Of a stretch of DNA of 64,000 nucleotides, positions 22,141 to 59,512 are shown one piece after another (the stretch's first letter is position 1; each line of letters opens with the position of its first letter). A model generated the notes under the pieces. The model searched no databases. It had not been told where the DNA came from and worked only from the letters and a program-made list of their open reading frames with translations. Origin of the DNA: Actinomycetota bacterium (GTDB lineage Bacteria > Actinomycetota > Humimicrobiia > Humimicrobiales > Humimicrobiaceae); assembly GCA_028698215.1 (NCBI GenBank), contig JAQVDY010000008.1, positions 1 to 64,000 on the forward strand, given 5' to 3'. The position numbers were made by a program, and so were the translations under genes.

Positions 22141-22168
22141 TTGCATAAATATATATTTATGTTATTAT
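22141..22168 (+). promoter_or_regulatory. Probable promoter of the M23 peptidase gene, leaderless
   Basis: TTGCAT (22141-22146) and TATTAT (22163-22168) are 16 bases apart. Transcription would begin at about 22175, right at the GTG start codon, and no ribosome site precedes it. This points to a leaderless mRNA. Confidence 0.45.
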
Positions 22169-57177: not shown

Positions 57178-58557
57178 CTAACCCGGCTCCGCATGTATAA
57201 GTACTTCCTCTATCTGCTTTATCTGTACCCGCAATGTGTTTTCCGCTTCTGTTATTATCTTATGGGCCTGTTCAATATTAAGGGAACTATCCATCCTGCA
57301 GTGAAAAGCCACATGGTAACTTTCACCTTTTTTAAGCACCGTAAAATCATGGCAGGTGCCGGGATCTATCAAAGGTGATACCTTTTCTTTTATTTCCTCT
57401 ATCAGCTGGCCTGAGTCCAGGGTAATATCATCCCAATATTCCTGGCCGGACAGATCCTCGGCATGTATATATATTTTTCTTAAATTGCTTATTTTAGACC
57501 TTATTTTTTGTTCAGTGTCCCTGGTAAGCCTTTCTACCTGCTCCAGGGTCATGCCGGCAGACAGCTCAACATGAACCGAAATGTCAGTATGGTCACCTAC
57601 TTTATACAAGTAGATATTGTGTACATCCTTGATCCCAGGCTGATTTAGGGTTACCTGCTTTAAATAATCAGAAATGTTTTCGTCGGCCAGCCTGGGTTTT
57701 ATTTCCACAATTATCTGCGAATGAGGAAACTGCTTCCTTATTTTTTCGCGTACCCTGTCCTTTACATTCTCTGCCTGGCTGAGGTACAGGTTATGGGGTG
57801 AACATAAGCTAAGGTTGATAAATTTTATTCCCCCTACTTCATGTATCTTTATATCTTCTATGCTTTCAATATCCTGGTCATTGCCCAAAATCTCCTTTAT
57901 TTTCTGGGTAACCTGTTCCGGTATATAATCCAGTAGGTTCCTAATAATGCTAACTGTAAGCCTGATGCTGAGGCCAATTACTACCAGTGATACCACTATG
58001 GAAGCTATGGGATCAGCCAGGTTGTAGCCAAACCTGGCCAGCAGCAAGCCTGCTATAACTACCAATGAGCTCAAGATGTCCCCGCTGTAGTTTAAATATT
58101 CAGCCCTGAAGGCAAAAGAGTTAAACTTCTTAGCCCCCCTGTACAGCACTATCACCCTGGCTATGTTCAAAATAATAGATATGCCCAACACTAAAAACAC
58201 CGGCCACCCTATGCTTAGTTCAAAATCACGGTGTATAAGCCTTTGAATGGATTTATATATTATGAATACACCCAAGCCGCTGATAACGGTAGTCTCCATA
58301 AAGGCGGCAAAATTTTCATATTTGCCATGTCCATAGGTGTGGTCTGCATCTGGAGGCCTGCTGGCTATTCTTACCGCTACAAAGGCAATGAATACTGTAA
58401 CCAAGTCCAGGCCATTGTTAAGTGCCTCTGAAAATATTCCCAAGCTATTGGAGAAATAGGCAGCCATTATTTTTATTATGACTAAAAAAATGGAAACCAG
58501 CAGGGAAAAGGTGGCGATTCTCTTTTTAGTTAATACTGTTTGATAGTTGTTTTCCAT
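57178..58557 (-). CDS. Cation diffusion facilitator metal transporter with three C-terminal repeats
   Basis: A 459-residue metal/proton antiporter. Six membrane segments lie within residues 12-208. Metal-site positions are N47xxxD51 in segment 2 and N156xxxD160 in segment 5, where zinc exporters have H/DxxxD. After residue 210 come three similar ferredoxin-like dimerisation domains: about 212-290, 293-369 (ending IYIHAEDL) and 383-457 (ending VLIHAEPG). A usual CDF protein has one and about 300 residues. Manganese, iron or another metal may be carried. It is divergent from the ArsR gene across a palindrome. Confidence 0.88.
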   Translation of the reverse strand: MENNYQTVLTKKRIATFSLLVSIFLVIIKIMAAYFSNSLGIFSEALNNGLDLVTVFIAFVAVRIASRPPDADHTYGHGKYENFAAFMETTVISGLGVFIIYKSIQRLIHRDFELSIGWPVFLVLGISIILNIARVIVLYRGAKKFNSFAFRAEYLNYSGDILSSLVVIAGLLLARFGYNLADPIASIVVSLVVIGLSIRLTVSIIRNLLDYIPEQVTQKIKEILGNDQDIESIEDIKIHEVGGIKFINLSLCSPHNLYLSQAENVKDRVREKIRKQFPHSQIIVEIKPRLADENISDYLKQVTLNQPGIKDVHNIYLYKVGDHTDISVHVELSAGMTLEQVERLTRDTEQKIRSKISNLRKIYIHAEDLSGQEYWDDITLDSGQLIEEIKEKVSPLIDPGTCHDFTVLKKGESYHVAFHCRMDSSLNIEQAHKIITEAENTLRVQIKQIEEVLIHAEPG

Positions 58558-58613
58558 GTACGTATTGCTCAGATCAATATACTGGTATTTTAATCTTTTG
58601 ATAAAAATCTGTA

Positions 58614-58671
58614 AACATTATTAATATTGCAATATTAATATGTTTTCATGTTATTATATAAATGCTATAAT
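58614..58671 (+). promoter_or_regulatory. Palindromic operator and promoter between CDF and ArsR genes
   Basis: TATTAATATTG at 58619-58629 followed by its exact reverse complement to 58640 makes a 22-base perfect palindrome, extended imperfectly by AACAT on the left and TGTT on the right. The ArsR promoter lies just downstream: TTTTCA (58643-58648), 17 bases, TATAAT (58666-58671) with TG one base upstream. The site is placed to control the divergent CDF gene as well. Confidence 0.6.
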
Positions 58672-58699
58672 AATATTTAACTTATACCAAGAGGTAAAA

Positions 58700-59023
58700 A
58701 TGAAAAAAGAAAAATTCTATAATCTGCATTCAGATATGTGCAAAACCATATCTAACCCCCGCAGGCAAGCCATAATAGACGCCATAAGGGACAAGTCTCT
58801 TACGGTTACTGAAATAGTTCAAAAGACAGGGCTGCCCCAGTCCAATATTTCCCAGCACCTGTCCCTGTTAAGCGCCAAGGGGATTGTAAACCGCAACAGG
58901 AATGGCAGCAATATCTATTATTCCATTGCCAATCCTAAGATTATTAAGGCTTATGACCTTTTAACTGAGGTTCTTAGGGAAGAATCAAATTCCAAGCAAG
59001 ATGTTATAAATGACTTGTTTTAA
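58700..59023 (+). CDS. ArsR-family transcriptional regulator
   Basis: A 107-residue winged helix protein from ATG at 58700, behind AGAGG. The DNA-reading part is LTVTEIVQKTGLPQSNISQHLSLLSAKGIV, read as residues 33-62, followed by the beta wing RNRNGSNIYYSI. The metal-binding ELCVC of SmtB/ArsR is absent; the only Cys is C13, so metal sensing by the classic alpha-3 site is unlikely. It precedes a DsrE-like gene by 15 bases and likely controls it and itself, perhaps also the CDF transporter. Confidence 0.9.
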   Translation: MKKEKFYNLHSDMCKTISNPRRQAIIDAIRDKSLTVTEIVQKTGLPQSNISQHLSLLSAKGIVNRNRNGSNIYYSIANPKIIKAYDLLTEVLREESNSKQDVINDLF

Positions 59024-59038
59024 GGAGTGGTGATAAAT

Positions 59039-59512
59039 ATGGCAAAGAAAAAACTGGCCATGGTGGTATTTAGCGGAGATATGGATAAGCTGATGGCTGC
59101 CTTTATGATAGCTACCGGTGCTGCTGCTTCCGATATGGAAGTAACCATGTTTTTCACCTTCTGGGGATTGAAGGCGTTGAAGAAAAAGCACCGGACCGGT
59201 AAAAGTTTTTTAGGCAGGTTGATGGGTTTCATGGAAAGAGGAGATATTGAAAACACCAGTCCATCCAAATACAGCATGGGCGGCCTGGGTAGATGGCTGT
59301 TTAAAAAAATGATGAGATCCAAAAATATTACTACCCTGCCCCAGTTAAGGGATATGGCTTTACAGATGGGAGTAAATCTGTATGGCTGCCAGATGAGCAT
59401 GAGCGTATTGGAAATCCCCAAGGAAGATATGATAGATGAGGTAAAGGGCTGTGTAGGGGTAGCATTTTTCATAGAAAAAGCCCAGGAAGCCGATGCCAGC
59501 TTATTCATTTAA
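59039..59512 (+). CDS. DsrE/DsrF-like family protein (DsrE2 type)
   Basis: A 157-residue protein. Family text: LAMVVFSGDMDKLMAAFMIATGAAASDMEVTMFFTFWGL, read as residues 6-43, and the conserved Cys in LYGCQMSMSVLEI near 118, probably a persulfide carrier site. DsrE2-type proteins are thought to move sulfur or act with peroxiredoxin-like partners. The ATG at 59039 is preferred with AAGGAG 11 bases upstream over GTG codons at 59027 and 59030. It is cotranscribed with the ArsR gene. Confidence 0.88.
   Translation: MAKKKLAMVVFSGDMDKLMAAFMIATGAAASDMEVTMFFTFWGLKALKKKHRTGKSFLGRLMGFMERGDIENTSPSKYSMGGLGRWLFKKMMRSKNITTLPQLRDMALQMGVNLYGCQMSMSVLEIPKEDMIDEVKGCVGVAFFIEKAQEADASLFI

Follow-up and report, generated by a model that had tools for sequence, protein, structure and literature searches.

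A predicted operator of a sulfur-linked ArsR-family repressor in an Actinomycetota genome

Our comparative analysis of a 64,000-nucleotide stretch of an Actinomycetota genome (hereafter, the window) suggests that positions 58616-58648 are the operator region of the adjacent ArsR-family repressor, which would repress its own arsR-dsrE2 transcription unit and have reactive sulfur as its inducer, a reading to which we give a probability of about 0.7. The site, its family motif, its loss together with arsR and the sulfur-gene neighbourhood were computed; binding, repression and the inducer are what we infer. In the mechanism that we propose, an ArsR dimer would most likely bind the 20-bp site 58624-58643, abutting the arsR -35 box, and shut off transcription of arsR and dsrE2 (autorepression). 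To its left, a second, weaker, overlapping inverted copy would complete the perfect palindrome found in this species. With the inducer present, the repressor would leave and the sulfur-carrier protein DsrE2 would be made. As inducer we envisage a reactive sulfur species, whether persulfide, polysulfide or a related thiol signal, which would be sensed through Cys14, the protein's only cysteine and a conserved one, in helix alpha-1. What emerges is a concrete, testable predicted operator and regulon, across bacteria and archaea, for a sulfur-linked ArsR clade that is uncharacterised, as well as a candidate one-cysteine sensor outside the known two-cysteine persulfide switch. A more speculative reading, which we consider less likely than not, is that this widespread, undescribed bacterial and archaeal clade, with its common operator ATATTMGAATATTCKAATAT, senses reactive sulfur through the helix-1 Cys14, to which many relatives add a second cysteine (position 8 or 85), not through the SqrR/BigR pair, and governs DsrE-type sulfur-carrier operons. 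We regard the sulfur-linked operator region as real; a unit combining metal and sulfur responses is unproven.

Table 1. Features in and around the arsR upstream region (positions in the window)
Feature	Position	Strand	Remarks
CDF cation efflux transporter, 459 aa	57178..58557	-	three ZT_dimer stretches; NxxxD, not HxxxD
CDF promoter TTTACA-17-TAAAAT	58587..58615	-	same layout in G001 and G003; -10 is TACAAT in G002
Alternative weaker arsR promoter TTGATA-18-TAATAT	58598..58627	+	-35 not conserved in L043
Weaker overlapping inverted operator copy (predicted)	58616..58635	-	3 mismatches; renders the palindrome perfect; not kept in sister species
Predicted ArsR operator ATATTGCAATATTAATATGT	58624..58643	+	centre 58633/58634; p=0.002 with the lineage motif, from which this genus was left out
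Invariant block ATATTAATATGTT	58632..58644	+	13 successive columns identical in three congeneric species
Likely arsR promoter TTTTCA-17-TATAAT	58643..58671	+	extended -10 (TGC); same layout in L043
arsR, 107 aa, winged helix-turn-helix	58700..59023	+	single Cys (Cys14); helix alpha-5 without His
dsrE2, 157 aa, DsrE/DsrF/DrsH-like (PF13686)	59039..59512	+	CQMSM cysteine motif

The palindrome and the predicted operator

The 142-bp gap between the divergent CDF and arsR genes (58558-58699; CDF start at 58557 on the minus strand, ArsR start at 58700 on the plus strand) holds a perfect 22-bp palindrome at 58619-58640, TATTAATATTGCAATATTAATA, with halves TATTAATATTG and CAATATTAATA, as the initial annotation had reported. 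No other perfect palindrome in the 64 kb is as long, the next having 18 bp; 0.03 such palindromes are expected per 64 kb of first-order Markov sequence, and the chance of one in 142 bp at the local make-up (20% GC) is 0.0014. Its placement upstream of the arsR -35 also holds, the likely promoter having a -35-like TTTTCA at 58643-58648 and TATAAT at 58666-58671. The flanking AACAT (58614-58618) and TGTT (58641-58644), described initially as extensions of the palindrome, are both present but one base out of register with it, and no second copy of the palindrome was found elsewhere in the genome with up to three mismatches allowed. We rejected an RNA element, the region having no Rfam match, and a terminator, the palindrome having only two G/C bases and no terminator-like site being called there.

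We gathered the regions upstream of related ArsR genes (n=96), drawing on whole genomes and public contigs, and a palindromic motif search started from random seeds returned ATATTAGAATATTCTAATAT, on which each of the six best-scoring starts shown agreed, with C at position 6 and G at position 15 as common alternatives. The log-odds total reached 699 versus 18-28 in shuffled sets; p-values of the motif on its own training sequences are descriptive, the independent test being the hold-out. This comparison showed the 20-bp operator to be common to bacteria and archaea. In archaeal relatives a TATA-like box is immediately followed by a nearly perfect 20-bp palindrome, and the operator of many bacterial relatives overlaps the -10 or comes right after it; both are repressor positions. 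Several relatives (for example L099) have the form ATTCGAATATTCGAAT, containing ATTC-N8-GAAT, the sequence recognised by the sulfide-responsive regulators SqrR/YgaV (PMC9774250), which the window site does not fit. A literature search for the exact motif text found nothing relevant.

Within the window's upstream region, a lineage motif built without the window's genus matched best at 58624-58643 (p=0.002), and it found the identical 20-mer in the congeneric genome G002 (locus L043, p=0.002). These positions correspond to the right part of the palindrome, which puts the centre of the predicted conserved operator 4 bp to the right of the palindrome's own. The general family motif matches the window site weakly (9.3 bits, p=0.01), its best register lying 8 bp further right. 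Being AT-rich, the lineage motif is not very specific: in a window-wide scan, an unrelated intergenic site at 22151, between aldolase-like and peptidase-like genes, scored slightly higher and was judged a chance match. An 18-bp perfect palindrome in the same gap (22144-22161, CATAAATATATATTTATG) overlaps this top match and is probably also due to chance. Genome-wide pattern searches gave a few AT-rich sites beside unrelated genes, and we claim no additional regulon members.

Conservation, loss and alternative readings of the site

The order CDF-arsR-dsrE2 is kept in G001 and G002, both of the same genus. In the alignment of three species, ATATTAATATGTT is the longest invariant block of the intergenic region and consists of the right arm plus its extension; the left arm differs among them, which leaves this species alone in having the perfect 22-bp symmetry. 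What the three species share is thus the right arm and extension only, and with the family motif centred 4 bp away the palindrome does not stand as the conserved unit. In a fourth species of the genus, G003 (L182, C210), arsR is absent and CDF and dsrE2 are still divergent, with 188 bp between their aligned parts; this gap gives background operator scores (p=0.14-0.34). It is a natural case of regulator and operator vanishing together, a single one and in an incomplete genome (84%). Relative to the likely arsR promoter, the predicted operator lies at about -39 to -60, unlike the -10/start position seen in relatives, whereas the weaker alternative promoter would set it over the -10/start, as in those relatives.

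Other readings of the site have to be weighed against this one. Although palindromes are commoner at 80% A+T, the probability of one this long in 142 bp of equal composition is 0.0014, and the right arm is conserved, which makes a chance palindrome very improbable. Also improbable, if less so, is that the sequence serves a different regulator or is an AT-rich structural element that has nothing to do with ArsR: it is indeed low-complexity AT and scores weakly against the general motif, but the same-lineage motif, the conservation, the loss together with arsR and the lack of an Rfam match speak against it. A more serious contender, still unlikely, is that the dimer binds the 22-bp palindrome itself, centred between TTG and CAA, and not the family site 4 bp to its right. 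The symmetry is perfect in the window, G001 has a 28-bp perfect palindrome with another centre, and G002 keeps an imperfect palindrome about the same centre with a 12-bp perfect core; against these stand the unconserved left arm and a half-site spacing that varies among species and departs from the family motif. We prefer the family site at 58624-58643 as the putative ArsR operator.

The repressor and its sulfur-gene neighbourhood

The protein belongs to the ArsR/SmtB family (PF01022, HTH_5, 43 bits against a cut-off of 22; NF033788, 74 against 55), and its predicted ArsR fold (pLDDT 89) places Cys14 in helix alpha-1. In all it contains one cysteine (14) and two histidines (10 and 53), none in alpha-3 or alpha-5. 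With no alpha-5 histidine and its sole cysteine in alpha-1, it lacks the classical metal sites of the family's sensors (alpha-3 cysteines or alpha-5 His/Asp ligands), in line with the earlier remark that the usual metal cysteines are missing. The SqrR/BigR pair (Cys50/Cys116 type) is missing as well, and the protein scores below the cut-off of the BigR model (41 versus 155 bits). Given the absence of both and the presence of a single Cys14, a sulfur signal acting via this residue is plausible. To our knowledge, Cys14 alone is not a known sulfane-sulfur switch. It is present in 82 of the 96 relatives, a figure biased by one search pattern that contained Cys14; an extra cysteine occurs at position 8 in several clade members and at 85 in more distant relatives. 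A related NCBIfam model is named TsoR; literature searches for this name returned unrelated papers only.

Among known systems, the sulfane-sulfur-responsive repressors SqrR, BigR, YgaV, SoxR and sHdrR, which use two conserved cysteines (PMC12423496), share with our case the ArsR fold and a sulfur-gene neighbourhood, and their ATTC-N8-GAAT (PMC9774250) fits one common form of the family motif; they differ from the window protein with its one cysteine, Cys14, and Asp27 at the position of the first BigR cysteine. The ArsR/SmtB metalloregulators (ArsR, SmtB, CzrA, CadC, CmtR) are similar in fold, in an operator beside a divergent metal efflux gene and in the NF033788 match, and dissimilar in having alpha-3 Cys or alpha-5 His; in relatives of the window ArsR, moreover, the operator neighbourhood is one of sulfur carriers. 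The closest solved structures by sequence are PagR, NolR and Rv0081, the last aligning almost end to end, but their gene contexts are other and the window ArsR falls below the PagR equivalog cut-off.

The window ArsR falls within a 25-member clade (support 100/99), 15 members of which adjoin DsrE2; in most of these outside this genus, genes for TusA, a membrane protein resembling NarI/DsrM and an iron-sulfur protein resembling HdrD come next. Other members adjoin a CoA-disulfide-reductase-like/rhodanese fusion, the next clade is largely archaeal, and in a wider set DsrE-family genes are the commonest downstream neighbours (18 of 53). With ArsR-DsrE2-TusA-DsrM/HdrD-like operons in many relatives, the link to sulfur is much stronger than the initial annotation could tell. 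The window DsrE2 has the domain and active-site cysteine of a sulfur carrier (DrsE_2, PF13686, 151 bits; CQMSM conserved), and stays below the stricter NCBIfam equivalog for DsrE2 (80 versus 210). DsrE2-TusA sulfur-transfer modules are known, for example with Hdr-like complexes in Metallosphaera (PMC4175335), and the relatives with DsrE2 and TusA side by side and HdrD-like genes resemble them; by contrast, this genus has dsrE2 on its own behind arsR, and TusA is encoded elsewhere in the window's own genome, beside IscU/IscS-like genes. In G050, a DsrE2-TusA-DsrM/HdrD-like operon without adjacent arsR keeps an operator right behind TTGACA/TATATT (p=0.004), so that the site is linked to the sulfur operon as such; none was found at two further ArsR-less dsrE2 genes (L183 and L184). 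At L184 (G007:C233), dsrE2 lies beside Rrf2/IscR-like, IscS- and IscU-like genes, a gene set that suggests a route from cysteine desulfurase to DsrE2.

The divergent CDF transporter

The transporter belongs to the CDF superfamily (TIGR01297; Cation_efflux domain), with NxxxD instead of the HxxxD of CDF zinc transporters in both expected segments, conserved in four species, so that zinc should not be assumed as its substrate. Orthologs occur in 27 of the 35 family genomes, and the divergent arrangement is confined to this genus. The initial annotation had proposed a shared operator, with ArsR at the palindrome repressing both arsR-dsrE2 and the CDF pump in a combined sulfur-and-metal response. 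The site is indeed situated between the two promoters, at a distance of 8 bp from the CDF -35; G000, G001 and G002 all retain the divergent order, CDF is still divergent from dsrE2 in the arsR-less G003, and some relatives lie near P-type ATPases (L044, L052). Yet neither ArsR nor the operator accompanies any of the five CDF orthologs examined elsewhere in the family, CDF is missing from the vicinity of most ArsR-DsrE2 relatives, G003 retains an intact CDF promoter (TTTACA-17-TAAAAT) despite the absence of the operator, and the 20-bp site is upstream of the CDF core promoter, covering neither its -35 nor its -10. We thus consider joint repression doubtful. The proposal survives as a predicted ArsR operator; its other half, joint control of CDF, is weak and gets no backing from conservation, whose pattern speaks for an operator that goes with arsR and the sulfur operon rather than with CDF. 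Control of CDF through mere proximity is possible, as bound ArsR could interfere with the CDF -35, again without support from conservation.

In G001 (L044, 4621-7915) and G003 (L182, 1-2481), CDF is followed by a P-type metal ATPase gene. The window's own genome encodes a second ArsR of the same clade (L039, contig 26, 6051-6321), cut by the contig end. The same contig carries genes for another ArsR and a permease as well as a low-molecular-weight phosphatase/arsenate-reductase-like gene. The same-clade ArsR at the contig end has its own operator-like site, ATATTTTAATATGCATATAT, overlapping a -10, and cross-regulation involving it is possible.
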